Part shown: piece after piece, positions 37,515 through 60,524 of the stretch
How the letters are laid out: each line of letters starts with the position of its first letter
Numbering within the stretch: position 1 is the first letter of the stretch
Origin: Actinocorallia populi
GTDB taxonomy: Bacteria > Actinomycetota > Actinomycetes > Streptosporangiales > Streptosporangiaceae
Reading direction: 5' to 3'
Length of the DNA stretch: 64,000 nucleotides
Assembly: GCF_002995495.1 (NCBI RefSeq)
Contig: NZ_PVZV01000003.1
Location: 62,001-126,000 of the forward strand
Translations under genes and position numbers: made by a program
The notes under the pieces: model-generated
What the model saw: only the letters and a program-made list of their open reading frames with translations
What the model was told of the DNA's origin: nothing
The model's database searches: none

Positions 37515-37527
37515 GGAACAGTGTTCC
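37515..37527. promoter_or_regulatory. GGAAC-N3-GTTCC operator, site 1
   Basis: Perfect palindrome GGAAC-AGT-GTTCC, about 16 bases after the -10 box of the plus-strand promoter and 94 bases upstream of the divergent gene at 37421. A related element, AAACCTCAGAG, lies at 37546-37556 (minus strand). Confidence 0.75.
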
Positions 37528-37563
37528 GTCACCAGGAACGAAAAACTCTGAGGTTTAACAAAC

Positions 37564-38535
37564 ATGACTCAGAACACCCAGCGGCCCCTCATCGAGGGCA
37601 TCACCGCGGCGATCGTCGGAGTGAGCGACTTCGCCCCCCATCTCGAGCTGTTCACCGGTCGGCTCGGCTACGCGGTGGCGGCCGAGGGCGCCGTGCCCGC
37701 GGCGGTCGCCGACGCCCTGTGGGGAACGGGCCCGGCGGACCTCGAGGTGGTCGCGCTGGCCGCCGCCGGCTCCGGTACGGGGCGGATCCACCTCGTGCGG
37801 GTGCCCGAGCCCGTCGCGCCGGCCGAGCCCCCGCACAACCTCGACGTCGGCCTGGTCGGGATCGACATGTACGCCCGCGACATCAAGGCCGCGCACGCCG
37901 AGCTCGGCGCCGCCGGGCACCCCTGGACCGTCGCCCCCACCACCTACGGCGTCGCGGTGGGCGAGCGCGAGGTCGAGGTCACGCAGGGCATCTGCCCGGC
38001 GCCGGACGGGACCGTCGTGGTCTTCGTCCAGCCCGCCGCGGTCCGCGGCACCGAGGCGTGGGACGCCGACCCGGAACGCTCCTACACCGAGCTCACCTCG
38101 GTCGTCTGCCACGTCCCCGACCCCGACGCCGAGGTCGCCTTCTGGGGCCCGCGGGGGCTGGGCATGGACGTCTGGTACGACGTGGTGTTCTCCTCCCCCG
38201 GGTTCGACGAGGTCGCCGGGCTGCCGGACGGCACCCGGATGCGCCTGGCGTTCCTGGCCGGGGAGAAGACCGCCCGGATCGAGGTCACCTCCGCCGACGC
38301 CGAGCACCGCGTGGACCGGCGGGCGGCCCAGCGCCCGGCGCGCTCGCTCGGCCACAGCGGCTGGTCGGTGCGCACCCGCGACCTGGCCGCCGCGCTGGAG
38401 AGCGTCCGCCGCACCGGCGGCCGGGTGCTCGCCGGCCCGGTCGAGACCGACGACCCGTGGCACGGCCGCGCCACCGCGGCGAGCGTGGACACCCCCAACG
38501 GCGTCTCGGTCACCCTCTGGCAGCCCCTCGGCTGA
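37564..38535 (+). CDS. Double VOC (glyoxalase/dioxygenase fold) protein, copy 1
   Basis: 323 residues, two VOC modules (about 8-155 and 170-320). Second module: TSVVCHVPDPDAEVAFWGPRGLG, LGHSGWSVRTRDLAAALESV and C-terminal NGVSVTLWQPLG. Close paralog of the protein at 54552-55562 (shared DRRAAQRPAR, WYDV.FSSPG and LTSVV.HVPD segments). The terminal metal-ligand Glu seen in the paralog (NGISVEIWQP) is Thr here, so metal binding may differ. VOC proteins catalyse isomerisation, epimerisation or ring cleavage; the reaction is unknown. First gene of an operon with the acyl ligase. Confidence 0.8.
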   Translation: MTQNTQRPLIEGITAAIVGVSDFAPHLELFTGRLGYAVAAEGAVPAAVADALWGTGPADLEVVALAAAGSGTGRIHLVRVPEPVAPAEPPHNLDVGLVGIDMYARDIKAAHAELGAAGHPWTVAPTTYGVAVGEREVEVTQGICPAPDGTVVVFVQPAAVRGTEAWDADPERSYTELTSVVCHVPDPDAEVAFWGPRGLGMDVWYDVVFSSPGFDEVAGLPDGTRMRLAFLAGEKTARIEVTSADAEHRVDRRAAQRPARSLGHSGWSVRTRDLAAALESVRRTGGRVLAGPVETDDPWHGRATAASVDTPNGVSVTLWQPLG

Positions 38536-38609
38536 CCCGCCGCGCTCCGATCCAGCGGGACACCGCTCCCGTACGACGTGCCGGACCCGGCTTTCCGAAA
38601 GGAACAAGC

Positions 38610-40157
38610 ATGCCCGTCCTCCGTGGAGGCGCACCCCTGTCGATAGCGGGCGGCGTGCGTGAATTCGCCCGCGCCACCCCCCTGGCGACGGCGGTGATCG
38701 ACGGCGACCGCGCCCTCACCTACGCCGCGCTCGACGACCGTTCGAACCGCCTGGCCACCGCCCTGCTCGCCGGGGGCCTCTCCCCCGGCGACCGCGTCGC
38801 GGTGCTGCTGGGCAACCGGCTGGAGTACCCGGAGATCGCCGCCGGGATCGCCAAGGCCGGCCTGCTCATGGTGCCGCTCAACCCCCGCCTCACCCCGCCC
38901 GAGGCGCGCTACATCCTCGAGCACTCCCAGGCCGGGGCGGTCGTCCTCGACGACGCCTGCGCCCCCGTCGTGGGCGACGCGATCGAGGAGCTGCGGCTCC
39001 CCGCCCTGTCGATCGACGGCGGCCAGGCCGGCCGCCCCTACGAGGACGTGCTCGCCGGAGCGCGGGCGGTGGACCCGGCGGTACGGGTGGACGAGCTCGA
39101 CCCGTTCTGCGTCGCCTACACCTCGGGCACGACCGGACGGCCCAAGGGCGTGCTGATCAGCCACCGGAGCCGGGCGCTGACGTTCTACTTCTCGGCGATG
39201 GAGTGGGGGCTCGGCACCGGCCGCACGTCGGTCGCGGTGGCGCCGATGTACCACGGCGCCGGGTTCGCCTTCGGCTACGCCCCGGTCCACACCGGCGGCA
39301 CCGTGACGATGCTCCGCAAATGGGACCCGGAGGCGCTGCTGCGCCTCGTGGAGCGGGACCGCGCCCAGTCGGCGTTCCTGGTGCCGACGCACGCGCAGAT
39401 GCTCCGGGCGCTGGACGGGGCGAAGCTCGCCGAGCGGGACCTGAGCAGCCTCGACACGCTCTACTTCAACGCCGCCGCGCTCCCCTGGGCGCTCAAGCAG
39501 TGGGTCATGGAGGCGTTCCCGGACTGCGGCGTGCACGAGCTGTACGGCTCGACCGAGGCGGGCATCATCACCGACCTCCGCCCGGTGGACCAGCACCGCA
39601 AGCCCGGTTCGGTCGGCCACGCCTGGTACATGACGGAGCTGCGGGTCGTCGGCCCCGACGGCGAGCCCGTCGGTCCGGGCGAGCCGGGCGAGCTGTTCAG
39701 CCGCTCCCCGTTCCTCATGAACGGCTACCACGACGACCCGGCCGCCACTCGGGAGTGCACCACCGAGGACGGCTTCCTCACCTGCGGCGACATCGTGGTG
39801 CGCGACGAGGAGGGCTACGTCCACGTCGTCGACCGGAAGAAGGACATGATCATCTCCGGCGGCCTCAACGTGTACCCGCGCGAGGTCGAGGAGGTGCTGG
39901 CCGGGCACGCCGCCGTGGCCGAGGTCGCCGTGGTCGGCGCGCCCTCCGAGACCTGGGGCGAGGAGGTCGTGGCCTATGTCGTCCCGCGCGGGGGCGAGGA
40001 CGGCCCCGGCCTGCTCGCCGAGCTGGCCGAGCACTGCCGCGCCGGTCTGGCGGGCTACAAGCTGCCCCGGCGCTGGGAGGTCGTCGACGCGCTCCCCAGG
40101 AACGCGGCGGGGAAGATCCTCAAACGTGACCTCAAGGTGAGGGCAGATCCCTCCTGA
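38610..40157 (+). CDS. AMP-forming acyl-CoA synthetase/ligase
   Basis: 515 residues, ATG 38610 with GAAAGGAA upstream. ANL superfamily: P-loop YTSGTTGRPKGV, A5-type LYGSTEAG, A7-A8 GDIVVRDEEGYVHVVDRKKDMIISGG, and C-terminal PRNAAGKILKRDL with the adenylation lysine. Activates a carboxylic acid to its CoA thioester via an acyl-adenylate. Substrate not predictable, but it implies that the island degrades a carboxylate through CoA esters. 74 bases after the VOC gene, same operon. Confidence 0.92.
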   Translation: MPVLRGGAPLSIAGGVREFARATPLATAVIDGDRALTYAALDDRSNRLATALLAGGLSPGDRVAVLLGNRLEYPEIAAGIAKAGLLMVPLNPRLTPPEARYILEHSQAGAVVLDDACAPVVGDAIEELRLPALSIDGGQAGRPYEDVLAGARAVDPAVRVDELDPFCVAYTSGTTGRPKGVLISHRSRALTFYFSAMEWGLGTGRTSVAVAPMYHGAGFAFGYAPVHTGGTVTMLRKWDPEALLRLVERDRAQSAFLVPTHAQMLRALDGAKLAERDLSSLDTLYFNAAALPWALKQWVMEAFPDCGVHELYGSTEAGIITDLRPVDQHRKPGSVGHAWYMTELRVVGPDGEPVGPGEPGELFSRSPFLMNGYHDDPAATRECTTEDGFLTCGDIVVRDEEGYVHVVDRKKDMIISGGLNVYPREVEEVLAGHAAVAEVAVVGAPSETWGEEVVAYVVPRGGEDGPGLLAELAEHCRAGLAGYKLPRRWEVVDALPRNAAGKILKRDLKVRADPS

Positions 40158-40160
40158 GTC

Positions 40161-40189
40161 TTGACCTGGAAACCTCAGACAATTACCTT
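40161..40189 (+). promoter_or_regulatory. Promoter of the His-rich bicupin
   Basis: -35 TTGACC (40161-40166), 17-base spacer, TACCTT (40184-40189). The spacer contains AAACCTCAGAC (40170-40180), a variant of the second shared element. Confidence 0.55.
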
Positions 40190-40198
40190 CGAAGCATC

Positions 40199-40211
40199 GA
40201 AACAGCGTTCC
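40199..40211. promoter_or_regulatory. GGAAC-N3-GTTCC operator, site 2
   Basis: GAAAC-AGC-GTTCC, one mismatch from the consensus, 9 bases after the -10 box and 42 bases before the bicupin start. Confidence 0.65.
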
Positions 40212-40253
40212 AACGCATAAGACATAGCTTTGAGTCAGTGGAAGGACATCACA

Positions 40254-41507
40254 GTGCGCCCCCATGTCGAGCTGATCCAGGAAGACGACTACGTGTGGCA
40301 CGGCGCCGAGCTCATCGGCGGTGAGGGCCGCGCCAGCGAGCGCCGGCTCTCGGTGGACGAGGAGGACGGCTCCTCCTCCCTGCGGATCGACTTCCACACC
40401 GACTGGGGTCGCGGGCCCGGCATCCACCACGCCAACAGCGAGTACTACGTGCTCGAGGGCTCGATGACCTACGGCGGCCGGAAGATCGGCAAGGGCGGGT
40501 ACGTCTACGCGCCGAAGGGCGTGCCGACCGACGCGATCACCTTCGCGGAGGGCACCCGGCTCCTGCACTACCGCGAGTACGGCGACGCCGGCTTCGACCG
40601 CGTCGACTCCCTCGCCCACCCGCGCTGGGAGGGCGCCCGCGAGGACGTCATCGTCATCGACAGCGGGGCGATGAAGTGGGACGCGGTGCCCAACCCCGGC
40701 CCCATGCCCGGCCTGTTCATCAAATACCTGCACGTCGACCCGGCCACCGGCTTCTACACCCGCCTGGTACACGCCCAGGAGGGCTGGGCCGACCACCGCC
40801 TGGCCCACCACCCCTGCTACGAGGAGGCCTACACCACCCAGGGCCACATGGAGTACAACTTCGGCACCCTCGACCTCGGCACCTACTTCTTCCGGCCCGC
40901 CCGCGTGAAGCACGGCCACTTCACCACCATGGAGGGCGGCGCGACCTGGCTGCTGCGCTCCGACGGCGAACTGCAGAACTGGTACACCCAGAACGAGTGG
41001 CTGCGCTGGGGCGGCGAGGCCGTCAACTACGGGCCGGAAGGCGGCCGCATGCGCTGGTCGCAGTCCTCCCACGACCTCGGCTCGGGCCCCACCTGGCGCA
41101 GCGAGAAGGACATCGCCGACCTCACCGCCGCATGGCAGTTCCAGCGTGACCAGGGGCAGCCCGACGCGCGCTACACCCAGCACGGCCAGGGCGTCGACCG
41201 CAGCATCCTGGCCATCGCCAAGGCCATGGACGCGGCGCGCCTGCAGGGCGGCCACTCCGACGACCACGGCCACACGCACGACCACGGACACGACCACACG
41301 CACGACCACGAGCACGAGGTCCCGGCGCTGGACTGGGGCGCGGACCCCGCGTCGCTGGAGCACGCCGACGAGCGCACCGACCCGGGCGCGCACAACTGGG
41401 CGCACGGGCGGGCGTGGAAGCCGGGCGACCACATCCCGGCGCCCATCATCTCCTCCCTGCCGGTCCGCAGCCGCTCGCGCGGGCGCTGGGACGGCGACGG
41501 CATGTAA
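40254..41507 (+). CDS. Bicupin protein with a His-rich metal-binding stretch
   Basis: 417 residues from GTG 40254 (TGGAAGGA upstream at good spacing; a TTG at 40230 is a poorer alternative). First cupin about 45-110 with GPGIHHANSEYYVLEGSM (H58, H59, E63) and second about 155-235 with HHPCYEEAYTTQGHMEY and RPARVKHGHF. Residues 334-354 contain ten His alternating with Asp, Gly and Thr, a likely metal-binding or metal-storing strip not usual in cupins. Probable metal-dependent oxygenase or isomerase; substrate unknown. Monocistronic under its own operator-bearing promoter, with a membrane protein following. Confidence 0.82.
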   Translation: MRPHVELIQEDDYVWHGAELIGGEGRASERRLSVDEEDGSSSLRIDFHTDWGRGPGIHHANSEYYVLEGSMTYGGRKIGKGGYVYAPKGVPTDAITFAEGTRLLHYREYGDAGFDRVDSLAHPRWEGAREDVIVIDSGAMKWDAVPNPGPMPGLFIKYLHVDPATGFYTRLVHAQEGWADHRLAHHPCYEEAYTTQGHMEYNFGTLDLGTYFFRPARVKHGHFTTMEGGATWLLRSDGELQNWYTQNEWLRWGGEAVNYGPEGGRMRWSQSSHDLGSGPTWRSEKDIADLTAAWQFQRDQGQPDARYTQHGQGVDRSILAIAKAMDAARLQGGHSDDHGHTHDHGHDHTHDHEHEVPALDWGADPASLEHADERTDPGAHNWAHGRAWKPGDHIPAPIISSLPVRSRSRGRWDGDGM

Positions 41508-41588
41508 CCGCCCCCCTCTGCCAGAACCATGCGAACACCGTGGCCGGGCCCTACGGGTCCGGCCACGGCCGTCCCTCCGGAGCTTCAC

Positions 41589-42335
41589 GTGCCCCTCATC
41601 CCGCTCTCCGCGCCCGCCATGGAGCCCGTCCACGGGTTCAACTCCTACAGCCTGGCGATCCTGCTGCACATCGTGCTCTTCGTCTACTGGCTCGGCAGCG
41701 ACATCGGCGTCTTCTACTCCAGCAGGTTCATCCTCCGCTCCGAGCTGCCCGTCCCGGCCCGCTCGGTCGCGACCAAGATCATGCACGCCGTGGACATGGC
41801 GCCGCGGATCTGCCTCGTGCTCTTCCTGCCCAGCGGCGTGACGCTCATGGCGCTGAGCCCGTTCGGCGACGGCGTCTTCCCCGGCTGGCTGGTCGCCCTG
41901 ACCTGGGTCGGCTCGCTGGCCTGGCTGGCCCTGGTCGTCTACGACTACACCCGCGGCGCCACCCCGTTCGGCAGGGCGGTGCAGCGGCTCGACCTGATCG
42001 TCCGCTACGGCCTGGGCGCCGGGCTGCTCGCCGTCTCCGGCTACGTCCTCCTCAGCGCCGAACCGTTCGGCGTCACCACCAACCCCAAGTGGCTGGCCGC
42101 CAAGGTCGCCGCGTACGCCCTGTGCATCCTGTGCGGCGTGATGATCCGCCGCCGGCTCGCCCCCTTCGGCCCCGCCTTCGGCAGGCTGGTGAGCGAGGGC
42201 TCCAGCCCCGAGGTCGAGCAGCAGATCAAGCACTCCGTGCGCTCCTGCCTGCCCTACGTCTACTCCATCTGGTTCCTGGTCCTCCTCGCCGCCTTCCTCG
42301 GCGTCGTCAAGCCCGGCACCACCGCCTTCGGCTGA
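41589..42335 (+). CDS. Seven/eight-helix membrane protein, unknown function
   Basis: 248 residues from GTG 41589 (CCGGAGC upstream); ATG 41619 is an alternative. Helices at about 20-42 (YSLAILLHIVLFVYWLGSDIGVF), 72-92, 98-120, 132-152, 162-180 and 215-237. Conserved-looking polar positions inside helices, His in LLHIVLF and KIMHAVDMAPR, could ligate heme b (inference). I do not recognise a named family. It ends at a strong terminator and may be co-transcribed with the bicupin. Confidence 0.6.
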   Translation: MPLIPLSAPAMEPVHGFNSYSLAILLHIVLFVYWLGSDIGVFYSSRFILRSELPVPARSVATKIMHAVDMAPRICLVLFLPSGVTLMALSPFGDGVFPGWLVALTWVGSLAWLALVVYDYTRGATPFGRAVQRLDLIVRYGLGAGLLAVSGYVLLSAEPFGVTTNPKWLAAKVAAYALCILCGVMIRRRLAPFGPAFGRLVSEGSSPEVEQQIKHSVRSCLPYVYSIWFLVLLAAFLGVVKPGTTAFG

Positions 42336-42350
42336 CCCGACCGCCCGCCA

Positions 42351-42382
42351 GGGGCGGAGGAGCGAACCCGCTCCTCCGCCCC
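42351..42382. terminator. Hairpin terminator after the bicupin/membrane protein unit
   Basis: Perfect 13-bp arms GGGGCGGAGGAGC and GCTCCTCCGCCCC, 6-nt loop, followed by TCTTCCGTT. The 348-base gap 42336-42683 holds this and a second terminator and no gene that I can support. Confidence 0.8.
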
Positions 42383-42626: not shown

Positions 42627-42683
42627 TTCCGGTCGCGGCCGGGGGTGCGCGCCCGTCTTTGCGGGCGGGTCAGGGGTGGGTGG

Positions 42684-46207: not shown

Positions 46208-46220
46208 CAAATCGTGTTCC
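46208..46220. promoter_or_regulatory. Degenerate operator-like half-site before livH
   Basis: CAAAT-CGT-GTTCC keeps only the GTTCC half of the shared palindrome. It lies between the livH -10 box and start, the same place as the full sites, so a weak site is possible. Confidence 0.25.
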
Positions 46221-46241
46221 GGATACCAGAACAGGATTGGA

Positions 46242-46284
46242 AACCTAGGCTCCCGTCCTCGCCGTGTCAATAGGTCTGATGTTT
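46242..46284 (-). promoter_or_regulatory. livH promoter with abutting AAACATCAGACC element
   Basis: Read on the minus strand: AAACATCAGACC (46273-46284), 2 bases, -35 TTGACA (46265-46270), 17-base spacer, -10 TAGGTT (46242-46247). Near-consensus housekeeping promoter. Confidence 0.7.
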
Positions 46285-46410: not shown

Positions 46411-47238
46411 TTACCCGCCTTCCGGAGCCACCCATCCCATCTGGGCCGACAGCCTTCGCGTGGAGTCGAGCAGCGCGTCCACGCACGCGTCGACCTCCTC
46501 GCGGAACCGCTCCAGCGGCCCGCAGACGCTGACGACCACCACGGGCCGGCCGTGGTGGTCGAAGACGGGGGCGGCCACGGAGGCCGCGCCCGACATGCGC
46601 TCGGCGAACGACTGCGCCCAGCCGCGCTCACGGATCTCCGCGAGCTCCTCGCGCAGCCTGGGGACGTCGTCGATCGTGCGGTCCGTCAACGGCTCCAGGC
46701 GGACCTCCGACAGGTAAGCCTCGATCTCCTCGTCGCCGAGGAAGGCCAGGAACGCCTTGGAGGAGCCTCCTGCGTGCAGGGGGTAGGGCACGCCGAGGGA
46801 GACGCTCATGATGACCTCGCGGGCGGGGGTCACCTGGTCGGCGTAGACCCGGGTCCGGCCGGTGCGCAGGGACAGGGTGGCCGTCTCGTCGGTGCGCTGG
46901 GAGAGCGTCACCAATTCGGGCGCCACGATATGCCGGACGTCCAGCCGGTCCAGGTAGGCCAGGCCGAGGCGCATGGCGCCGATTCCCAGCGAATAACGCC
47001 TGCTCACCGGATCGAGGGCGATGAGATGTCGGCCGCGCAACGAGGACAGAATCCGGTGCACGGCCGCCTTCGACATTCCAAGCGTTTCGGCTATCTCAGT
47101 CACCCCGAGTGTCGCCGCCGGGGTTTCGACGAAGTACATCAGCACGTCCACGGCCCGCTCGACGGTGGCGATCACCTGTCCGGTGTTCTCACGAACGGGG
47201 GGTTCGCCTGGCACGGCGCTGCGATTCTTCGTGGGCAT
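46411..47238 (-). CDS. IclR-family regulator of the catabolic island (inferred)
   Basis: 275 residues. wHTH about 25-85 (TEIAETLGMSKAAVHRILSSL), effector domain from about 95 (ATLSLRTGRTRVYADQVTP, GGSSKAFLAFLGDEEIEAYL, GAASVAAPVFDHHGRPVVVVSVCGP). Ends shortly before the right end of its gene with no extra domain. It is co-transcribed with the small gene at 47267-47617 (28-base gap), in front of which lies a GGAAC-N3-GTTCC-type site. It is the only regulator gene inside the 30-62 kb island, so it is the best candidate for binding all seven sites. Confidence 0.9.
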   Translation of the reverse strand: MPTKNRSAVPGEPPVRENTGQVIATVERAVDVLMYFVETPAATLGVTEIAETLGMSKAAVHRILSSLRGRHLIALDPVSRRYSLGIGAMRLGLAYLDRLDVRHIVAPELVTLSQRTDETATLSLRTGRTRVYADQVTPAREVIMSVSLGVPYPLHAGGSSKAFLAFLGDEEIEAYLSEVRLEPLTDRTIDDVPRLREELAEIRERGWAQSFAERMSGAASVAAPVFDHHGRPVVVVSVCGPLERFREEVDACVDALLDSTRRLSAQMGWVAPEGG

Positions 47239-47266: not shown

Positions 47267-47617
47267 TCAACCATTTTGGTGTTGGAATCCCACCTTCACC
47301 GGAAGATCAGTGACAATTCTTGTATTGAGGAATTCCCACCACTCGTCCTGGCTGACCCGCTGGGCCTCCCAGGCGTCGTCGGTCTTCATCGCGGCCAGGG
47401 CCGAGCGGTACTCGCCCCAGCCCGCCTCGTCGTCGAAGGCGGCCCAGTTCTCCACGACGTACACGTCACCGATCACGCTGTAGTACCAGCGGACCTCCCG
47501 CACCATCGGAAGGTCACGGTAGAACCAGCGCTCCCGGTCCTCCAGCCAGTTCCAAAATCCCCGCATGTCGCCGCGGGCCCGCAAGCTGAGCTTCATCCGG
47601 TAGACGAGGTAGATCAT
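47267..47617 (-). CDS. Small dimeric alpha/beta-barrel-like protein, unknown function
   Basis: 116 residues. Pattern MIYLVYRMKLSLRARGDMRGFWNWLEDRERWF, VREVRWYYSVIGDVYVVENWAAFDDEAGW suggests one ferredoxin-like (ABM/Dabb-type) domain that would dimerise; such proteins include cofactor-free monooxygenases and polyketide-cyclase-like enzymes. The assignment is tentative. Aromatic content is high. First gene of the unit that ends with the IclR regulator. Confidence 0.55.
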   Translation of the reverse strand: MIYLVYRMKLSLRARGDMRGFWNWLEDRERWFYRDLPMVREVRWYYSVIGDVYVVENWAAFDDEAGWGEYRSALAAMKTDDAWEAQRVSQDEWWEFLNTRIVTDLPVKVGFQHQNG

Positions 47618-47670
47618 CGTCGCCCCTGCCTTCCCCTGGTGACCTGCACCACATGCTTGTTCCGCAGACA

Positions 47671-47683
47671 GTAACGCCGTTCC
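47671..47683. promoter_or_regulatory. GGAAC-N3-GTTCC operator, site 3
   Basis: GTAAC-GCC-GTTCC, one mismatch, 54 bases upstream of the start at 47617. It implies autoregulation of the IclR gene. Confidence 0.6.
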
Positions 47684-47749: not shown

Positions 47750-48325
47750 TCACCGGTCCCCGCGCCCCCAGCGGCGGACGAGGACGCGGCCGGGGAGCTC
47801 CGGCAGGGGTCCGCCGGACGGGACGTACGCCCAGGCCCTGGCGTCGAGAAAGGTCATGTCGAGACCTCCGGCTCCGGCCGGCCGGCCGGGGAGCTCCGCG
47901 AGGGAGCCGAGCAGTACCGAACGGCCGCCCCTTCCCGCCCGGCCGGGTGCGGGAGCGCCGTCCGCGACGCCGTCCCGCCAGCGCGGGGGCCCGGAGAACC
48001 AGGCGACGGCCAGGCAGCCGCCCGCACCCGCGGCGCTGGCCGCCCGGGTCGCCAGTCCGGGCAGGTAGGCGTGCGTGCCGGCGGGATGGTCGACACCGCT
48101 GACGGAGATCCGGCCATCGAGCACCGCGAACTCCTCGGCGCAGGTGTAATGGCCCGTCCCCGGCCTGGTCCAGGCCGGGGGGAAGCGCACCAGCGACACC
48201 GACGAGCCGGTGGCCTCGTCGGCGTGCAGCCGGACGAGCCGGACGGGGGCGGACGAGGCCGGCATGGCCACGTCGGCCCACGCGAGGCCGGGGGCGTCGA
48301 GGTCGACGACGCGGCCCGCCCCCAT
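47750..48325 (-). CDS. ChrR-like cupin protein
   Basis: 191 residues; the ATG at 48325 overlaps the upstream stop by one base (TGATG). One cupin core: SVSLVRFPPAWTRPGTGHYTCAEEFAVLDGRISVSG and HPAGTHAYLPG give the His/Glu ligand set (H in GTGHYT, E in AEEF, H in GTHAY). Resembles the C-terminal cupin of ChrR anti-sigma factors without the zinc-binding anti-sigma domain. Probably a small metal-dependent enzyme rather than a regulator. Co-transcribed with the DUF3598-like gene. Confidence 0.7.
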   Translation of the reverse strand: MGAGRVVDLDAPGLAWADVAMPASSAPVRLVRLHADEATGSSVSLVRFPPAWTRPGTGHYTCAEEFAVLDGRISVSGVDHPAGTHAYLPGLATRAASAAGAGGCLAVAWFSGPPRWRDGVADGAPAPGRAGRGGRSVLLGSLAELPGRPAGAGGLDMTFLDARAWAYVPSGGPLPELPGRVLVRRWGRGDR

Positions 48326-48777
48326 CAGTGCCAGGCCTCCGGCACTCCGCCGTGGACGCGGTGCTCCTCCACCACGGTGACCTGCTCCAGCCGCCCGTCG
48401 CGGAGCGTCTTCCAGATCCGCGACTTGTAGTCGTCGCCGGCGAAGGTGACCAGCTCGACCACCTCCAGGCCCGGCTCGGCCTTCCACCGGTAGGGGAACA
48501 GCAGGAAGCGCCCGTCCACGAGCCGGGCCTGCCCCTCGAAGCCGGTGGAGTCGAAGACGAGGTCGTCGTCGCCCTCGAACCTCGCCCGGAAGTCGAGCGC
48601 CTGCGGCTCGGCGTCCGGGCGCAGGTAGACGATCCGCTCGTACCAGAGGTCGCCCTCCAACCGGGTCTCCTGCCGGGAGGCGTAGGTCTCCAGCACCGTG
48701 CCGCCGGGTGTCAGGTGGGTGTAGACGCCCTCCCAGACCCCGGTGACGGAAGTGAGGCGCGCGCGCAGAGTGGTCAT
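48325..48777 (-). CDS. Small DUF3598-like protein (paralog B)
   Basis: 150 residues. Same pattern as paralogs A and C: GVWEGVYTHLTPGGTVLETYASRQE, LDFRARFEGDDDLVFDSTGF and C-terminal SRIWKTLRDGRLEQVTVVEEHRV. More diverged from A and C than they are from each other. The start codon lies 6 bases after a -10-like TAGGCT, so the mRNA may be leaderless. Divergent from paralog C. Confidence 0.68.
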   Translation of the reverse strand: MTTLRARLTSVTGVWEGVYTHLTPGGTVLETYASRQETRLEGDLWYERIVYLRPDAEPQALDFRARFEGDDDLVFDSTGFEGQARLVDGRFLLFPYRWKAEPGLEVVELVTFAGDDYKSRIWKTLRDGRLEQVTVVEEHRVHGGVPEAWH

Positions 48778-48813: not shown

Positions 48814-48841
48814 GCCTTGTCCACCCTTCATTCCCTCTAGC

Positions 48842-48854
48842 GGAACGTCGTTTC
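48842..48854. promoter_or_regulatory. GGAAC-N3-GTTCC operator, site 4
   Basis: GGAAC-GTC-GTTTC, one mismatch, 44 bases before the GTG start at 48899 and directly after a TAG-type -10 region (CTCTAGC). Confidence 0.65.
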
Positions 48855-48898
48855 ATTGTGCGACCCTGATGCCCGGCCCCGCAGAGAAGGAGCGACAC

Positions 48899-49354
48899 GT
48901 GAACATCCGCGAAGGCATGCCGCTGCTCGCCAGGCACGAGGGCGAGTGGGAGGGGACGTACACCCACGTGGACCGCGCGGGGAACGTCGTCGACCACCAC
49001 GCCTCCCACCTGAGCTGCACGTTCCCCGCCGAGCATCCGGACCGGTACGTGCAGGTCAACCGGTACCGGTGGGCGGACGGCCGGACGGAGGAGTACACCT
49101 TCCCCGGCGTCTACGACGGCGGGGAGCGCCTGCACTTCGACACCGAGCGCATCGAGGGCGTCACCTGGTGCCTGGACGCGAACACCGCCTACCTCACCTG
49201 GCGTTTCAAGGCTTCCGCCGAGGAGGTCGACCAGCGGCTGTTCGAGATGATCGTCCTCAGCGACGACGGCAACGACCGGACCCGCGTCTGGCAGTGGCTG
49301 GAGAACGGCGTCTGCGTGAAGCGCACCCTCATCAACGAGAAGCGCATCGCATGA
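48899..49354 (+). CDS. Small DUF3598-like protein (paralog C)
   Basis: 151 residues from GTG 48899 with GAGAAGGAG six bases upstream. Closely matches paralog A: GEWEGTYTHVDRAGNVVDHHASHLSC, RYRWADGRTEEYTFPG, HFDTERIEG, TAYLTWRF and RVWQWLENGVCVKRTLINEKRIA. No signal or membrane segment. Overlaps the MDR gene by ATGA, so it is co-translated with a reductase. Confidence 0.72.
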   Translation: MNIREGMPLLARHEGEWEGTYTHVDRAGNVVDHHASHLSCTFPAEHPDRYVQVNRYRWADGRTEEYTFPGVYDGGERLHFDTERIEGVTWCLDANTAYLTWRFKASAEEVDQRLFEMIVLSDDGNDRTRVWQWLENGVCVKRTLINEKRIA

Positions 49355-51900: not shown

Positions 51901-51919
51901 TCGGCGCGCGCCGGACGGG

Positions 51920-53152
51920 TCAGTCCTGGACCTCGACCGTGTGCCAGCCCTTGTCGTCCTTCTTCCACTGGTAGACGTGGATGTCGTCCAGGCCGAAGAA
52001 CTCGTGCTCGTCGATCTTGATGGAGTTGCCGGACGGCGTCTCGGTGTCCGGGATGTCGATCTTCTCCAGCGCGGCGGCGACCGCGTCCGGGGCCAGGGTC
52101 CGCGCCTGCTCGGCCGCCCGCGTGTAGGCGAAGACGCAGTCCGCGGCGATCTCGGCGGCCTTGGGCGACTCGGCCCCGGTCTTGGGACCGGTGTTCTTGC
52201 CGAAGCGCCGCTCGATGTCCTCGATGTGCCGCCGGTACCCCGGCCTCCAGGCGTCCCTGCCGTCCCGGCCCGGGTAGGGGTAGTAGGTGGCGCTGAAGAG
52301 CGCGCCGTCCGCGGCGTCGCCCGCGGCCTCCACGAACGAGATGTTGCGGGCGCCCGAGCCGCCCACGATCATGCCCTCGTAGCCCGCCTCGTTCGCCGCG
52401 GCCATGGTCTTGGCGCCGCTGGCGGAGTTGGAGATCCAGATCGCGCCGGCGTCCTTGAGCTTGTCGACGTACGGCCGGTGCGACTGGTCGTCCGGCCTGG
52501 TGGCCTCGAACCCCTTCCAGGCCAGGCCCGCCGCCTCCGCCTGCGCCTTCACCTCCTCGGCGGTGTTCTTCCCGGCGTCGTCCCCCTCGTAGACCACGCC
52601 GATCGAGGTGACGCCCCGCGCCTTCAGGTGGGTGATCATCTTGGTGACGTCGAGGCTGACCGGGTCCTGGGCGCGGAAACCGTACTCGAGGTCGGCGAAG
52701 CTCCCGGTGGCCACCATGGGCTGGCAGTTGATCTTCTTGTTGCTCTCGAAGCCGCCCTTGGCCGCGTTGTAGAAGGCGGTCAGCGCCGGCCCCACCACCA
52801 GGCCGACGCTCGCGTCACCGGAGAACTCGTTCGCCGCCTGCACCGCCTTGGCGGGATCGAGCCCGGAGTCGCGGACGACCAGTTCCAGCTTCGCCCCGCC
52901 GAGCCCGCCCGCGGCGTTCAGCCGGTCGATCTCGACCTTCACCGAGTTCTCCAGGGAGATGCCCGCGACGGCGAACGGGCCGGTCATCGGGCCGATCAGC
53001 CCGACCTTCACCACGGGCATGCCCGCGCTCCATCCGCCGCCGCCCGCGGACCTCGGCGTCACGCCGGCGCGCTCCTCCTTGCCCGCGCAGGCGGTGAGCA
53101 GCAGTGCGGCGCCGAGCAGCGCCGTGACCTTGTATCCAGTCTTGACCGACAT
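51920..53152 (-). CDS. HAAT-family solute-binding lipoprotein (copy 1)
   Basis: 410 residues. Lipobox LLTAC about residues 18-22, then LivK-type periplasmic-binding fold: VKVGLIGPMTGPFAVAGISLENSVK, VVRDSGLDPAKAVQAANEF, VGPALTAFYNAAKGG, GVVYEGDDAGKNTAEEVK, IDIPDTETPSGNSIKID. Delivers ligand to the LivH/LivM-G/LivF complex encoded at 42684-46176. 59 bases after its paralog at 53212, same operon. Confidence 0.92.
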   Translation of the reverse strand: MSVKTGYKVTALLGAALLLTACAGKEERAGVTPRSAGGGGWSAGMPVVKVGLIGPMTGPFAVAGISLENSVKVEIDRLNAAGGLGGAKLELVVRDSGLDPAKAVQAANEFSGDASVGLVVGPALTAFYNAAKGGFESNKKINCQPMVATGSFADLEYGFRAQDPVSLDVTKMITHLKARGVTSIGVVYEGDDAGKNTAEEVKAQAEAAGLAWKGFEATRPDDQSHRPYVDKLKDAGAIWISNSASGAKTMAAANEAGYEGMIVGGSGARNISFVEAAGDAADGALFSATYYPYPGRDGRDAWRPGYRRHIEDIERRFGKNTGPKTGAESPKAAEIAADCVFAYTRAAEQARTLAPDAVAAALEKIDIPDTETPSGNSIKIDEHEFFGLDDIHVYQWKKDDKGWHTVEVQD

Positions 53153-53211
53153 GGGGGGATTCCTCTCAGGTAATGCGGTCAGCACGGAGCCGACCCGCCG
53201 GCACCGCTCGG

Positions 53212-54444
53212 TCAGGACCCGGGGGTGACGTCCGTGATGAACCAACCCTGGCCGTCCTTGTCCCACCGGTAGATGTGCATGTCCTCGACGTGGAAGAACT
53301 CGTGGTCGGCGGGCTTGATCCGGTTGCCGGACGGCGTCTCGGTGTCCGGGATATCGAGCTTCTCCATCGCCGGCGCGAGCTCGTCCGGATCGAGGGACCG
53401 CACGCTCTCCGCCGCGGCGGCGAACGCGGTGACGCAGTCGGCGGCGATCGCGGTCCCCTTGGGCATCTCGGCGCCCGACCTGGGCCCCTCGACCACGCCG
53501 TACTTCTTCACGATCTCCTCGACGTGCGCCTTGTAGCCGGGCTTCCAGCTCGCCTTGTCGCGGATGTTGAACTGGACGTTCACCGCCGAGAACACCGCGC
53601 CGACCGCCATGTCCCCCGCCGCGTCGAGGAAGGAGACGTTCTGCAGGCCCGAGGTGCCCGCCAGGATGCCCTTGTAGCCGGCCTCGCCCGCCGCCGCCAT
53701 CGTCTTGGCGCCGCTGACGTTGCTGGAGACCATGATCGCGCCGGCGTCCTTGAGCTTGTCGACGTACGGCCTGTGCGACTGGTCGTCGGGGCGGGTCTGC
53801 TCGAAGCCCAGGTACTCGATGCCGTACTCGGGCGCCAGCTCGGCGATGAAGCCGTCGTTGGCCTTGCCCGCGTCGTCCGCCTCGTAGACGAGCCCGATGG
53901 ACTTGACGCCCTTGCTCTTGAAGTACTGCATCAGCTTCTCGACGCCGATGTGGTTGGGATCCTGGGAGCGGAAGCCGTACTTCAGCACGCCGAAGTCGCC
54001 GGTGCCGACGCCCGGCTGGCAGTTGATCTTCGCGTTCTGCTCGTAGACGCCCTTGGCCGCGTTGTAGAAGGCCGAGAGCGACGGGCCCACGACCATGCGG
54101 ACCTGGCTGTCGCCGGCCAGTTCATTGGCGGCCTGCACGGCCTTGCCCGGGTCGAGCCCGGAGTCGCGGACGACCAGTTCCAGCTCGGCCCCGCCGATGC
54201 CGCCGGCCTGGTTGATCCGGTCCATCTCGACCTGGATCGAGTTCTGCTGGAGGATGCCGAGGATCGCGTAGGGACCGGTCATCGGCGAGATGAGTCCGAT
54301 CTTTACGGTGCCGGCCCCCTCCACCCAGCCGGCGGTCCCGCCGTCGGCCCGGTCGCCCGCGCGCTCCTCCTTGCCCGCGCAACCGGCGAGCGCCAGAGCG
54401 CCCACCGCCATCGCGGACACCCAGCGAGTTGTGGACCTGCGCAC
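53212..54444 (-). CDS. HAAT-family solute-binding lipoprotein (copy 2)
   Basis: 410 residues from GTG 54444 (AGGAGG upstream). Lipobox LAGC near residue 22, then VKIGLISPMTGPYAILGILQQNS, LVVRDSGLDPGKAVQAANEL, VGPSLSAFYNAAKGVYEQ, TRPDDQSHRPYVDKLKDAGAI, IDIPDTETPSGNRIKPADHEFF. Same length as copy 1 and similar throughout (shared TRPDDQSHRPYVDKLKDAGA and DIPDTETPSGN), so the pair is a tandem duplication. Promoter carries operator site 5. Confidence 0.92.
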   Translation of the reverse strand: MRRSTTRWVSAMAVGALALAGCAGKEERAGDRADGGTAGWVEGAGTVKIGLISPMTGPYAILGILQQNSIQVEMDRINQAGGIGGAELELVVRDSGLDPGKAVQAANELAGDSQVRMVVGPSLSAFYNAAKGVYEQNAKINCQPGVGTGDFGVLKYGFRSQDPNHIGVEKLMQYFKSKGVKSIGLVYEADDAGKANDGFIAELAPEYGIEYLGFEQTRPDDQSHRPYVDKLKDAGAIMVSSNVSGAKTMAAAGEAGYKGILAGTSGLQNVSFLDAAGDMAVGAVFSAVNVQFNIRDKASWKPGYKAHVEEIVKKYGVVEGPRSGAEMPKGTAIAADCVTAFAAAAESVRSLDPDELAPAMEKLDIPDTETPSGNRIKPADHEFFHVEDMHIYRWDKDGQGWFITDVTPGS

Positions 54445-54489
54445 CTGCTACCTCCTGAATTCTTCGTCCCCGAAGTCGATTCCGCGGTG

Positions 54490-54502
54490 CGGAACGGAGT
54501 TA
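54490..54502. promoter_or_regulatory. GGAAC-N3-GTTCC operator, site 5
   Basis: GGAAC-GGA-GTTAC, one mismatch, 4 bases downstream of the -10 box of the binding-protein operon. Confidence 0.6.
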
Positions 54503-54506
54503 CGTG

Positions 54507-54553
54507 CAGCCTAGAAATCTGCCAACCCAGCGTCAAGGATTTGTCTGATGTTT
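54507..54553 (-). promoter_or_regulatory. Promoter of the binding-protein operon
   Basis: Minus strand: AAACATCAGAC (54543-54553), -35 TTGACG (54530-54535), 17-base spacer, -10 TAGGCT (54507-54512). The upstream element overlaps the end of the VOC gene at 54552. Confidence 0.65.
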
Positions 54554-55562
54554 ATTTCCGCGAGCTTCTCCGGCGCTTTGGTCGGCAGAACGGCTGCCAG
54601 ATCTCCACCGAGATTCCGTTCGGCGTCTCCACCACGGCGAGCCGCGCCCTGCCGTGCAGCGGGGTGGAGGTGTCGAACGCAGGGCACACCACCCGCCCGC
54701 CGGTGGCCCTCGCGCGCCGCACCGCCGCGTCGGCGTCCCCGGTGCGCACGGACCACCCCGTGTGCCCGAGGCCCCGTGCGGGCCGCTGGGCGGCGCGCCG
54801 GTCCACCCCCCGGTGGCCGCTCTCCACCCGGGTGAGCTCGATGCGCGTCGACCCGCTCCCGGCGCCCGCGACGAAGGCGAGCCGGAGCACGGTCCCCGCC
54901 GGGAGGCCCGCCATCTCCTCGATTCCCGGGGAGCTGAACGTCACGTCGTACCAGGCCGAGAGTCCGAGCCCCGCCGGACCCCAGAACGCCAGTTCCGCCT
55001 CGAAGTCCGGGACGTGGGCCACCACGGACGTCAGCTCCGTGTAGTGCCTCCCCGGGTCCGTCCGCCACGCCTGCGTGCCCCGGGCGTTCGCCGGCTGCAC
55101 GAAGACGAGGCCGAGCCCGTCGGGGCCGAGGCAGTAGCCCTCCGTCACCGACACGACCGCCCCGCCCAGCGGCACCTCGTACGTGGCGGGCGCGCTGATC
55201 CAGGGGTGGCCCGCGCCCGCCAGGCGCTCGTGCGAGGCCTCGATGTCCCGGGTGTAGAGGTTGAGCCCGGCGAGGCCGACGTCCAGGGTGTGCGGGTGCT
55301 CTGCCGGGGCCGCCGCGCCGTCCGCCTTCAGCAGGTGGACGCGGCCCGTCGACGCGCCCGCCGCCGTGAGCAGCACGGCCTCGACGTCGCCGAGCCCCGC
55401 GCCCCACAGCCGCTCCGCGTCGGCCGCCTCCACCACGCCCCGGGCCGCGACCTCGAAACCGAGTTCGCCGCAGAAGAGGTCGAGATGGGGGCCGAAGTCG
55501 GTGACGCCGACCACCGCCGAGGTGACGCTCTCGATCAGCGGGTCGCGCCCGGTGTCACCCAT
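54552..55562 (-). CDS. Double VOC protein, copy 3
   Basis: 336 residues. Two VOC modules as in copy 1 (37564): TSAVVGVTDFGPHLDLFCGELGFEV, TLDVGLAGLNLYTRDIEASH, LTSVVAHVPDFEAELAFWGPAGLG, GLGHTGWSVRTGDADAAVRRA, NGISVEIWQPF. Keeps the C-terminal Glu that copy 1 lost. Extra basic tail CRPKRRRSSRK. Overlaps the FAD enzyme gene by 8 bases; GGAGG upstream of the start. Confidence 0.8.
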   Translation of the reverse strand: MGDTGRDPLIESVTSAVVGVTDFGPHLDLFCGELGFEVAARGVVEAADAERLWGAGLGDVEAVLLTAAGASTGRVHLLKADGAAAPAEHPHTLDVGLAGLNLYTRDIEASHERLAGAGHPWISAPATYEVPLGGAVVSVTEGYCLGPDGLGLVFVQPANARGTQAWRTDPGRHYTELTSVVAHVPDFEAELAFWGPAGLGLSAWYDVTFSSPGIEEMAGLPAGTVLRLAFVAGAGSGSTRIELTRVESGHRGVDRRAAQRPARGLGHTGWSVRTGDADAAVRRARATGGRVVCPAFDTSTPLHGRARLAVVETPNGISVEIWQPFCRPKRRRSSRK

Positions 55563-57024
55563 GCGCGTCCTCCAGCCCCGCGGCCAGCGCGCGGCCCAGT
55601 TCGCGCCCGAGTGTCATCGCGGGCGTCACGCTCATGCCGCCGACGTAGTTGTCGCCCGCGAAGACGTTGTTGCCCAGCACCTCGCCCACCGCGTACAGCC
55701 CGGCGATCGGGACGCCCTCCCGGTCGAGCACCGCCAGGTCGCCGTTCACCCGCAGGCCGTCCCGGCTGAGCAGGGAGGCCCCGATCGAGGTGAGCCCGTA
55801 GTACGGGGCCTCGGAGATCGGCGAGGGCAGGACCGTCCGCCCGTGGTCGGGGTCGTGCCCGCCCGCCACCGCCTCGTTGTAGCGCCGCACGGTCTCGGTG
55901 AGCCCTCCCGGGTCCACTCCGAGCTTCCGCGCCAGCTCCTCGAGGGTGTCGGCGGCGGCGATCCACCGGCCGCGGGCGTGCTCCTCGAGCATGCGCTCGC
56001 GCGTCCAGTCGCCCGCCCCGTTCCTGATCAGCGGCTCGGCCGCCTCGGCGACCGCCCGGTCCCAGACGACGTGCATCTCGATGCCCGGCTGGCGCAGCAG
56101 GGCCCGCTCCCGGTGCTCGGGGCTGGTGGTGTCCTCCGCGACGAAACGCGCGCCGTCGCGGTTGACCCAGATCTCGTGCGGGGTCCGGTAGGCGGGGGCG
56201 ACCTCGACGAACGCCTCGCGGTAGTCGACCGCGAAACCGGGCCTGCCGGGATCGGGGATCAGGCCCATCACCGGGATGAAGTGGCCGTCGCCGCCGGTGC
56301 CGGCTCCCAGCCCCTCCGCCAGGCGGAGGCCGTCGCCGGTCGCGTGGTCCAGGCAGGCGATCAGCGCGTTCTCGCACCCCGGCGGCAGGAACCGGTTCCG
56401 CAGGTCCCGGTCGGCGTCGTAACCGCCGGTGGCCAGGACGACGGCGCCGCCGTACGCGGTCACCGCGCCGCCGGGTCCCGTCCCGGACACTCCGGCCACC
56501 CGGCCGCCCTCGACGACGGCGCCTTCGACCCGGACGCCGAACCGCACCGTCACCGAGCCGTCGGCGACGTGCTCCCCGAGCAGCCGCCGCAGCACGGCGA
56601 TCACCGAACGGCCGTGCTCCACTCCCCAGTAGGTGCGGGGCACCGAGTAGACCTCGTGCCCGTGCACCAGCCCCGGCGTCGCGGGGTCGAACGCGAAGCC
56701 GTGGCCCTCCAGCCAGTCGACCGTCTCGCCCTGGGCGCGCACGCTCTGCCAGGCGAGCCGCTCGTCCGCCCTGCCGTGGGACAGCCGCATCACCTCGGCG
56801 AAGTGCTCCTCGGGGGTGTCGTCGATGCCGTGCGCGGCCTGGCGGCGGGTGCCCGCCCCGCTGAACTCGCCGTTGGCGATGTGCAGCATGCCGCCGATCT
56901 CCCGCCGCTTGTCCACGAGCAGGACCCTCGCGCCGCCGGCGGCCGCCTCGATGGCCGTGCACAGGCCGCCGGCGCCGGCGCCGACGACCACGACATCAAA
57001 ATGTCCGATGTTTTCGTCACTCAT
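55555..57024 (-). CDS. FAD-dependent dehydrogenase/reductase, fumarate reductase flavoprotein family (copy 1)
   Basis: 489 residues; ATG 57024 inside an ATGA overlap. FAD_binding_2 family: dinucleotide motif VVVGAGAGGLCTAIEAA (about 11-27), GGMLHIANGEFSGAGTRRQ, GAVVLATGGYDAD, C-terminal GLYAVGEVLGNNVFAGDNYVGGMSVTPAMTLGRELG. Related to 3-ketosteroid dehydrogenases and fumarate/urocanate reductases, i.e. alpha,beta-desaturation or its reverse. Clear paralog of 60722-62149. Sits between two VOC genes in one operon. Confidence 0.87.
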   Translation of the reverse strand: MSDENIGHFDVVVVGAGAGGLCTAIEAAAGGARVLLVDKRREIGGMLHIANGEFSGAGTRRQAAHGIDDTPEEHFAEVMRLSHGRADERLAWQSVRAQGETVDWLEGHGFAFDPATPGLVHGHEVYSVPRTYWGVEHGRSVIAVLRRLLGEHVADGSVTVRFGVRVEGAVVEGGRVAGVSGTGPGGAVTAYGGAVVLATGGYDADRDLRNRFLPPGCENALIACLDHATGDGLRLAEGLGAGTGGDGHFIPVMGLIPDPGRPGFAVDYREAFVEVAPAYRTPHEIWVNRDGARFVAEDTTSPEHRERALLRQPGIEMHVVWDRAVAEAAEPLIRNGAGDWTRERMLEEHARGRWIAAADTLEELARKLGVDPGGLTETVRRYNEAVAGGHDPDHGRTVLPSPISEAPYYGLTSIGASLLSRDGLRVNGDLAVLDREGVPIAGLYAVGEVLGNNVFAGDNYVGGMSVTPAMTLGRELGRALAAGLEDAHG

Positions 57025-57872
57025 CCCTTCTCCGCCCCGGAGCGGCGCAGCTCGACCTCCACGCCGGCGGGACCGCGCACGACGCGGTCGCCGACGCGGA
57101 CGCCGCCGCACGCCAGGAGGGCGGCCTCCGACGCGTCCGGGTCGGCGGCGGCGAAGACCAGCCGGCGCAGCCCGAGCGGCCGCCCGGACAGGTCGCGCGC
57201 CTCGACGCCGGTGAACGACATGATCTCCAGCCGGGCGGGCGCCTGGTCGGCCGAGACCAGGAAGGACAGCCGCAGGCTCGCGCCGGGCGGCATCCCGATC
57301 ATCCGCTCGAACGGCTCACCGCTCATCTCCCCGTCGAAGGCCACCTCCAGGCCCCCGGCCCCGGTGAAGAAGCGCAGCGCCTCCTCGTGGTCGGCGGGCA
57401 CGAGGACCGCCGTGTGCAGCTCGCCGTGCAGGCGCTGCGGATCCCCCTCGAGCGCGGGGCTCGGCCGGTGGCCGGGACCCGCCTTCGGAAGCGTCCACCA
57501 GACGCCGTCGCTGCCGAGCGCCACGGCCTCGCTCAGGGAGGCGGAGCCGTAGGGGTAGGTCACCGGCTCCCGCGACCGGCCGCCCGCCTCGTCCACCAGC
57601 CGGACGGAGCGCTCCAGGTCGCGCGAGTACATGCCGAGCAGCCGGGGGCCGACGTCCCAGACCCGGGGCGGCTCGGCGTCCGCCGCGTCCGCCGCCGCGG
57701 CGGGCACCAGCCGCAGGCGGCCGGTCGCCGAGCCCGGCGCCCCCAGGAGCACCTCGGCGCCGTCCCGCCCGACCGTTTCGAGGCCGAACGCGCGGGCGTG
57801 GAATCCGGCGGACGCCTCGACGTCCCGGCACACGACGACCGCTTCGATGATCGCTCCGAGCGACAACGTCAT
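57021..57872 (-). CDS. Double VOC protein, copy 4
   Basis: 283 residues from ATG 57872 (GAGGGAGG directly upstream; GTG 57884 is an alternative). Modules: AIIEAVVVCRDVEASAGFHARAFGLE with DVGPRLLGMYSRDLERSVRLVDEAGG, and HGELHTAVLVPADHEEALRFFTGAGGLEVAF with LRRLVFAAADPDASEAALLACGG. More diverged than copies 1 and 3. First gene of the VOC-FAD-VOC operon, behind an operator-bearing promoter shared divergently with the gene at 58041. Confidence 0.78.
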   Translation of the reverse strand: MTLSLGAIIEAVVVCRDVEASAGFHARAFGLETVGRDGAEVLLGAPGSATGRLRLVPAAAADAADAEPPRVWDVGPRLLGMYSRDLERSVRLVDEAGGRSREPVTYPYGSASLSEAVALGSDGVWWTLPKAGPGHRPSPALEGDPQRLHGELHTAVLVPADHEEALRFFTGAGGLEVAFDGEMSGEPFERMIGMPPGASLRLSFLVSADQAPARLEIMSFTGVEARDLSGRPLGLRRLVFAAADPDASEAALLACGGVRVGDRVVRGPAGVEVELRRSGAEKG

Positions 57873-57903
57873 CCTCCCTCTCACCCCATCCGTTCCGAGT
57901 GCC

Positions 57904-57916
57904 GGAACATCGTTCC
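57904..57916. promoter_or_regulatory. GGAAC-N3-GTTCC operator, site 6
   Basis: Perfect GGAAC-ATC-GTTCC touching the minus-strand -10 box, so it covers the transcription start. Confidence 0.75.
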
Positions 57917-57959
57917 AAGCTAGGAGGGAGGCCTTTCCCTGTCAATGGTCTGACTGTTT
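57917..57959 (-). promoter_or_regulatory. Promoter of the VOC-FAD-VOC operon
   Basis: Minus strand: AAACAGTCAGACC (57947-57959), 1 base, -35 TTGACA (57940-57945), 17-base spacer, -10 TAGCTT (57917-57922). Same layout as the livH and binding-protein promoters. Confidence 0.72.
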
Positions 57960-57994
57960 CACCAGAGGTCTTCCCAAAGCGCCGCGGCCTCTCC

Positions 57995-58018
57995 TATAGT
58001 CGCCAGGAACAGTGTTTC
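57995..58018 (+). promoter_or_regulatory. -10 box TATAGT and GGAAC-N3-GTTCC operator, site 7
   Basis: TATAGT (57995-58000) followed after 5 bases by GGAAC-AGT-GTTTC (58006-58018), one mismatch. Reads toward the gene at 58041. The -35 region is poor, so an activator may be needed; the TCAGACC element at 57947-57959 lies upstream. Confidence 0.65.
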
Positions 58019-60522: not shown

Positions 60523-60524
60523 CG

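Follow-up and report, generated by a model that had tools for sequence, protein, structure and literature searches.

Genes and candidate operators of the island

The window analyzed here is a 64-kb stretch of DNA (C3:62001-126000 of genome G000). It holds a catabolic island that includes a gene for an IclR-type regulator and a set of promoters marked by a short palindrome, which we describe below as part of a larger, three-box candidate operator. From left to right, a Pfam scan of the island gave a nitrilase-like protein, an oligopeptide-type ATP-binding cassette (ABC) system, a DUF3598-like protein, a VOC protein, an AMP-ligase, and a DUF4437 bicupin, followed by a 268-amino-acid (aa) protein with no family over the cutoff, LivHMGF-type transporter genes, IclR, and a 116-aa protein. 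Beyond these lie a cupin-like protein (below the cutoff), two DUF3598-like proteins on opposite strands, a member of the zinc-type alcohol dehydrogenase family, SnoaL and VOC proteins, two periplasmic binding proteins, a VOC protein, an FAD_binding_2 flavoprotein, and another VOC protein. The right end is formed by nitrilase-like and aldehyde dehydrogenase proteins and a second FAD_binding_2 flavoprotein. Of the three small DUF3598-like proteins in the island (36972-37484, 48325-48777, and 48869-49354), that at 48869 passes the Pfam cutoff of 22 with 24.5 bits, and the other two score 21.9 and 21.4 bits.

The proposed regulator matches both domains of its family, HTH_IclR (42.6 bits, cutoff 22; E = 5e-11) and IclR_C (143.3 bits, cutoff 24; E = 7e-42). 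The regulator gene, its neighbor, and the eight candidate operators, with their position weight matrix (PWM) scores, are as follows.

46411-47238, minus strand: iclR, 275 aa, proposed regulator
47267-47617, minus strand: gene for the 116-aa protein, first gene of the iclR unit
37515-37539, plus strand: candidate operator before the VOC/AMP-ligase genes (37564-40157); 0 mismatches, PWM 29.1
40199-40223, plus strand: candidate operator before the DUF4437 bicupin gene; good palindrome, weak third box, PWM 14.5
46208-46240, minus strand: eighth site, in front of livH; close to symmetric, so the boxes can be read on either strand, PWM 24.6 (plus) and 18.4 (minus)
47659-47683, minus strand: candidate operator before the iclR unit; PWM 32.3
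48830-48854, minus strand: candidate operator between divergent DUF3598-like genes (48325-48777, minus; 48869-49354, plus); 0 mismatches, PWM 24.9
54479-54503, minus strand: candidate operator before the genes for branched-chain-type substrate-binding proteins (53212-54444, 51920-53185); 1 mismatch, PWM 20.8
57892-57916, minus strand: candidate operator before the VOC/FAD/VOC unit (57884 down to 54552); 0 mismatches, PWM 21.4
58006-58030, plus strand: candidate operator before the nitrilase-like/aldehyde dehydrogenase/FAD unit (58020-62149); 0 mismatches, top PWM score of 33.6

Occurrence and conservation of the three-box element

With at most one mismatch, the palindrome GGAACNNNGTTCC was found at seven places in the window, all within 37515-58018 (37515, 40199, 47671, 48842, 54491, 57904, and 58006; two exact and five with one mismatch). 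The first-pass annotation had listed the same seven GGAAC-N3-GTTCC sites, and the pattern scan recovered every one, with 54490 corrected to 54491. Its statement that they are all intergenic also held in gene models based on open reading frames, by which 93.7% of the region 37000-60522 is coding. In 100 dinucleotide shuffles of the window, the palindrome occurred 1.92 times on average and six times at most; seven was never reached. The whole genome (8.25 Mb) contains 13 exact copies and 213 with at most one mismatch, compared with 4 and 62 for the palindrome read backwards as a control. This rate corresponds to 0.53 sites per 20.5 kb and a Poisson probability of at least seven sites of 1.5e-6, or about 6e-4 once multiplied by the approximately 400 such stretches in the genome. 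Equal frequency of the motif genome-wide or inside genes can thus be set aside, the spread being uneven, with seven sites seen against 0.53 expected and all of them intergenic.

Alignment of the upstream DNA of orthologous genes revealed a conserved unit of about 25 bp rather than 13, the third box being a direct repeat at a distance of 20 bp; at these orthologous promoters, the half-sites are conserved and the spacers drift. Judged from the aligned sequences, the palindrome is two of three boxes, and the candidate operator is a 25-bp element, GRAAC-N3-GTTNC-N7-GGAAY. The inner pair of boxes was therefore rightly recognized in the first-pass annotation, whereas the length of the operator, its third box, and the eighth site, before livH, had been overlooked. 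As a description of the whole site, the bare 13-bp palindrome was rejected: it misses the livH site and many sites of relatives. The composite pattern occurs without mismatch at 37515, 47683(-), 48854(-), 57916(-), and 58006 and with one mismatch at 54503(-), and each of these six is oriented toward a gene that it precedes, 48854 lying between divergent genes. At up to three mismatches, the window gave 15 matches, some of which were repeat readings of one site and three of which lay beyond the island; the reversed window gave 1. Seven perfect copies exist in the genome, five in the window and two on contig C14, 3 to 4 kb from an IclR paralogue (55% identity). At up to two mismatches, there are 85 copies, compared with 24 for the reversed control.

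A PWM was built from 26 distinct sites of relatives, with no window site included. Its top eight places in the window were 58006, 47683, 37515, 48854, livH, 57916, 54503, and 40199 (33.6 to 14.5), so that the livH promoter, which lies outside the reach of the 13-bp pattern, is among them. The reversed window reached 10.1, and 20 Markov sequences gave maxima between 6.0 and 17.9, of which two exceeded 14.5. A sequence-only model, which scored 150 of 3049 first-look candidates, returned nine places in the genome at an E value of 10 or less (best, 0.009). Island sites made up four of the best five, and two further places were the C14 sites near the IclR paralogue.

Much of the island was found in Thermomonospora echinospora (L017), Microtetraspora (L018, L019), Sphaerimonospora (L020), Microbispora (L021), and Nonomuraea (L022, L023). 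In these seven genomes, the IclR orthologues are 75 to 88% identical, and the 116-aa protein, which had no Pfam match at an E value of 1 or less, is 79 to 91% identical and occupies the same place. Gene order from the 48325 gene to livF is kept as far as the loci of relatives reach (L019 and L020 are shortened by contig ends), except that about 4 to 6 kb of other sequence separates the 47750 gene from the 47617 gene. To the left of this stretch, the genes in L017 differ from those in the other relatives.

Conservation in orthologous islands, which the first-pass annotation had proposed as a check, was surveyed by taking the best site within 180 bp of orthologous gene starts. Before the iclR unit, the operator is present at 0 mismatches in eight of nine rows of relatives (the ninth is genome G194), and before livH it is present in all seven rows (0 to 3 mismatches). 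The promoter of the VOC gene at 37564 has an orthologous operator in 4/5 rows, the fifth being a 60% paralogue. For the bicupin gene, four of five usable rows show all three boxes without mismatch and the fifth shows two mismatches; in a sixth, the gene start runs off the stretch. At the right end of the island, comparison was afforded mainly by L120, which carries the site before the binding-protein gene at 54444 (1 mismatch; one of two rows, the other being its paralogue), the VOC gene at 57884, and the nitrilase-like gene at 58020 (0 mismatches and one row each). L121 and L123 have operators between the same two divergent DUF3598-like genes. Operators were also seen in relatives before oppB (3/3 rows, 0 to 1 mismatches), SnoaL (1/2 rows), and the DUF3598-like gene at 36972-37484 (1/4 rows, 2 mismatches). 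None at 0 to 2 mismatches was detected before orthologues of the nitrilase gene at 31419 (0/3), the aldehyde dehydrogenase gene (0/1), the alcohol dehydrogenase-like gene (0/3), or the 48869 gene (0/2).

We also scanned 200 genomes of the family, counting composite sites at up to one mismatch. The number of sites tracks the IclR subfamily: 23 genomes with an IclR at an E value of 1e-80 or less have a mean of 10.3 sites (reversed control, 0.65), 16 with weaker matches have 4.4, and 161 without a match have 3.2 (reversed control, 0.70). The Mann-Whitney P value, relatedness ignored, was 7e-9, or 2e-8 when the genome of the window was left out. Twelve of the 13 genomes with at least 10 sites belong to the first group; the thirteenth is G128. 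Apart from the exceptions G005, G194, and G128, the operator is linked to and co-occurs with the iclR gene. Among 26 short loci with distant IclR homologues (L007-L016, L094-L109), 17 have a site at up to two mismatches, and 20 do when the third box is loosened to GRAAY; the reversed control gave 0 for both. Above about 54% identity, IclR homologues share the recognition segment S/TKAAVHRIL with few changes. Loci of the C14 type mostly have GAAAC instead of GGAAC, and there the segment begins with TKAAVHRIL, not SKAAVHRIL. Near two C14-type homologues (L100 and L101, at about 1355-1400), operator arrays were noticed in which more than three boxes follow one another at 20-bp intervals.

Sites of this kind have been described before. 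In the available part of the survey by Suvorova and Gelfand (2021; PMC8222616), predictions for 32 orthologous groups of IclR proteins show a three-box layout, which is also reported for PcaU, with a group 2 consensus of TGRAACAN1-2TGTTYCA and a group 1 subgroup consensus of GTTYCRYW3RYGRAAC (GTT-11-AAC). The inner pair of the window element, GRAAC-N3-GTTYC, corresponds to group 2, and the outer pair, GTTYC-N7-GRAAC, which shares the middle box, corresponds to the group 1 subgroup. Of the eight sites in the window, six agree with the whole three-box pattern at 0 or 1 mismatch; the fit is weak at 40199 and livH and better in relatives. As in the described sites, the three boxes alternate in direction and the repeat distance is 20 bp, and LivKHMGF-type transporters are present in those regulogs too. 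A difference from group 2 as given there is that the A flanking the first of the inner boxes is retained in part (A at position 6 in 14 of 26 sites). Because the layout is equal to that in the available text of the survey, the window operator belongs to this kind, and the IclR/operator set is a new case of it. A literature search found no paper on IclR regulons in Streptosporangiaceae.

Probable regulation by the IclR-type protein

The first-pass annotation had placed most sites directly downstream of a -10 box. Five of its seven palindromes (37515, 40199, 54491, 57904, and 58006) indeed follow a predicted -35/-10 pair scoring 9 or 10, with the -10 ending 0 to 15 bp before the site; at 58006, the -35 (TTCCCA) is not canonical. 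For predicted pairs, the distance from -10 to operator is 15 bp at 37515, 9 bp at 40199, 1 bp at livH, 4 bp at 54503, 0 bp at 57916, and 5 bp at 58006. Promoter predictions for 47671 and 48842 are weaker (score of 8 or less); the best pair of the iclR unit, TTCCCA-N17-TACTGT, has its -10 inside the operator. At the 47683(-) and 58006(+) promoters, CTTCCCAA stands about 17 to 18 bp before a -10-like hexamer in the place of a TTGACA. It is conserved in the iclR-unit and nitrilase promoters, with equivalents in L017-L023 and L120, and is perhaps the site of another protein.

At six of the eight sites, the operator begins 0 to 15 bp downstream of the predicted -10, which suggests repression. Two IclR dimers, or a tetramer, could occupy the 25-bp element and would then block transcription initiation at the adjoining promoter until a catabolite bound by the C-terminal domain of IclR ended the block; activation is possible, above all at 48854. 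The eight operators would place under this control the genes for branched-chain-type ABC uptake, the acyl-CoA-ligase-like protein, the bicupin, VOC proteins, flavoproteins, nitrilase-like protein, aldehyde dehydrogenase, and DUF3598-like proteins, together with the iclR unit. The palindrome reported before the unit of the IclR gene itself is part of the operator at 47659-47683, which most likely serves autoregulation. Taking together the uneven spread of the motif, its conservation at promoters, and its co-occurrence with the IclR subfamily, we consider that the single IclR regulon of about 20 kb proposed in the first-pass annotation was well founded and that one IclR-type regulator (46411-47238) very probably controls the island through three-box operators.

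A number of points weigh against this interpretation. The promoters are predicted hexamers, and 47671 and 48842 lack a convincing pair. The window's own oppB has no operator (best, 4 mismatches), though relatives have one. The consensus by which the training sites were chosen was written after the window sites had been seen, though the matrix holds none of them. The 40199 site (PWM 14.5) falls below the best chance scores, 2/20 Markov maxima being higher, and the stronger reading of the livH site runs opposite to the gene. The sites at 40199, 46240, and 48854 are not among the places listed by the sequence-only model, which at 57892-57916 gave just a partial match on the opposite strand. Across genomes, G128 has 13 sites yet only a 41% identical IclR, and G005 and G194 have 2 and 0 sites despite a good IclR. 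In G194, this is an orphan (L132:13678-14481; 73% identity) whose 116-aa neighbor is the sole island gene in 38 kb, and no operator was detected in that locus; the whole genome likewise gave no composite match with one mismatch or fewer. The statistics treat related genomes as independent, and genomes without IclR still have 3.2 sites compared with 0.7 for the reversed pattern, so other regulators or sequence bias account for some of the count.

The same protein might use the same sites as an activator. PcaU and PobR are activators. The operators of PcaU, PobR, and HmgR likewise consist of a palindrome with one external direct half-site, which is required for PcaU binding according to the available text of PMC8222616, although the half-sites given there for PcaU and PobR are GTTCG/GTCCG-like rather than GGAAC. 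Activation would also fit 48830-48854, where the minus-strand gene has a possible promoter downstream of the operator. The position of five palindrome sites and the livH site just after a predicted -10 suits blocking, however, and the window IclR scores far under the cutoff of the NCBIfam model for PcaR/PcaU/PobR (TIGR02431; 121.7 bits against 284.75), so that it was rejected as a member of that group. We regard this activator role as unlikely.

Another regulator could bind the GGAAC operators and the IclR link be incidental. One candidate would be an FCD-type GntR protein encoded just beyond the window (C3:134193-134948), since many genomes with this GntR also have the IclR. GntR loci, however, carry a different box, AWACNTCAGAC (13/17), whereas the three-box operator is also seen close to less similar IclR homologues with different gene neighborhoods, and no operator above a PWM score of 10 was found in L143, the 20 kb holding the GntR gene. 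This explanation is highly improbable. Almost no credence can be given to the idea that the sites clustered by chance or belong to a dispersed repeat with no regulatory role, for which the 213 genomic places of the bare 13-bp pattern might speak. A chance cluster was rejected on the shuffles and the genome rate, and clustering, intergenic placing, orientation, and half-sites kept while spacers drift argue against both.

With IclR control as the preferred interpretation, poorly characterized enzymes (DUF4437 bicupin, DUF3598-like, VOC, and unusual flavoproteins) would be joined in one regulon with a candidate regulator and eight candidate operators. Among relatives of Thermomonospora and Nonomuraea, an entire catabolic island can be marked by three-box IclR operators. 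Of the NCBIfam models, BhcR (NF045644) scored best against the IclR protein, with 168.9 bits against a cutoff of 350, and it was rejected as an equivalog. All seven models among the matches listed were below their cutoffs, so no substrate was assigned. For the flavoprotein at 55555-57018, there is a resemblance to flavocytochrome c fumarate reductase and urocanate reductase, too broad a likeness to name a substrate. At an E value of 0.01 or less, neither the bicupin nor the VOC protein at 37564 had a sequence match in the PDB, and nothing on the function of DUF4437 and DUF3598 in bacteria was found among the literature matches listed.

A second promoter box and a sister island

Several island promoters have in common a second box, AWACNTCAGAC, or its core, which adjoins the -35 or, for the bicupin gene, lies inside the spacer.

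40170-40180, plus strand: second box, bicupin promoter; core TCAGAC conserved in relatives
46274-46284, minus strand: second box directly upstream of the livH TTGACA; core TCAGAC conserved in relatives
54543-54553, minus strand: second box upstream of TTGACG, substrate-binding-protein unit
57948-57953, minus strand: TCAGAC core in front of the TTGACA of the 57884 unit; flank departs from AWACN

Of the seven copies of AWACNTCAGAC in the genome (control, 0), six fall within C3:102-135 kb. Three lie 7 to 9 kb past the window end, near the FCD-type GntR gene (L143:12190-12951; G000:C3:134190-134951), which is about 8 kb past the window end and has TCAGAC boxes on both sides. Like the NanR, LldR, and PdhR relatives of this type, the protein has GntR and FCD domains and a box near its own gene; this box is not the palindrome, and the listed NCBIfam scores are below the cutoffs. 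A homologue at an E value of 1e-45 or less was found in 17 genomes, with the box within 1.5 kb of the gene in 13 (reversed control, 0/17). These 17 genomes have a mean of 4.6 second boxes, compared with 1.6 in the other 183. The pattern is short, and its highest count, 11, was in G218, a genome without GntR at that threshold. Its position and co-occurrence indicate that AWACNTCAGAC is probably a box for the FCD-type GntR, acting on several of the same promoters. Since it stands both in island promoters and beside GntR genes, the island probably answers to two regulators. At L143:9460-12091, genes for a luciferase-type monooxygenase, a MaoC/mesaconyl-CoA-hydratase-like protein, and a FAS1-dehydratase-like protein carry the second box and no IclR operator; they may extend the island as a part controlled solely by GntR.

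The operator can serve as a tag for more genes of related pathways, and it has already led to a sister regulon. The island on C14 shares with the window the bicupin (77% identity), AMP-ligase (62%), iclR (55%), and 268-aa protein (52%). It also encodes, behind a three-box IclR operator, a protein with the RCC_reductase domain (PF06405; E = 3e-15) at L110:3214-4017 (G000:C14:31246-31932 by the PF06405 match), the closest solved relatives of which are plant red chlorophyll catabolite (RCC) reductases (E = 4e-9). PF06405 was found in 8 of the 200 genomes, all among the 23 with IclR (hypergeometric probability, 9e-9, relatedness ignored). The reductase and IclR genes lie within 16 kb of each other in seven of these eight, and a three-box operator lies no more than about 140 bp upstream of the PF06405-matched stretch in six (reversed control, 0), in one of which (L169) it has the opposite orientation only. 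In the window, no homologue of the reductase was found. The DUF3598-like protein at 48325 is predicted to be a calycin-like barrel (mean predicted local distance difference test score, 92.5), and the best fold matches of the model were BFA1, Ycf58, a DUF3598 protein, phycobiliprotein lyase, and nitrobindin.

These features raise the idea that the IclR regulons of the window and C14 control bacterial breakdown of linear tetrapyrroles, which would be either bilins or phyllobilins that plants leave in leaf litter. The DUF3598-like proteins, one of them phycobiliprotein-lyase-like, and the flavoproteins resembling fumarate and urocanate reductases could then take part, and the nitrilase-like hydrolases could open imide products. 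Because calycin barrels bind many ligands and the window has no reductase homologue, we regard this theme as quite doubtful. The literature matches listed, including those for bacterial bilin breakdown, contained no report of a bacterial RCC reductase, though this does not prove that none exists. If the idea is true, it becomes testable what happens to the products of chlorophyll breakdown in soil bacteria. On C14, two perfect three-box operators (L110:16760 and L110:17643, both plus strand) flank a sortase-domain gene (L110:16845-17555), an odd companion of catabolic genes.

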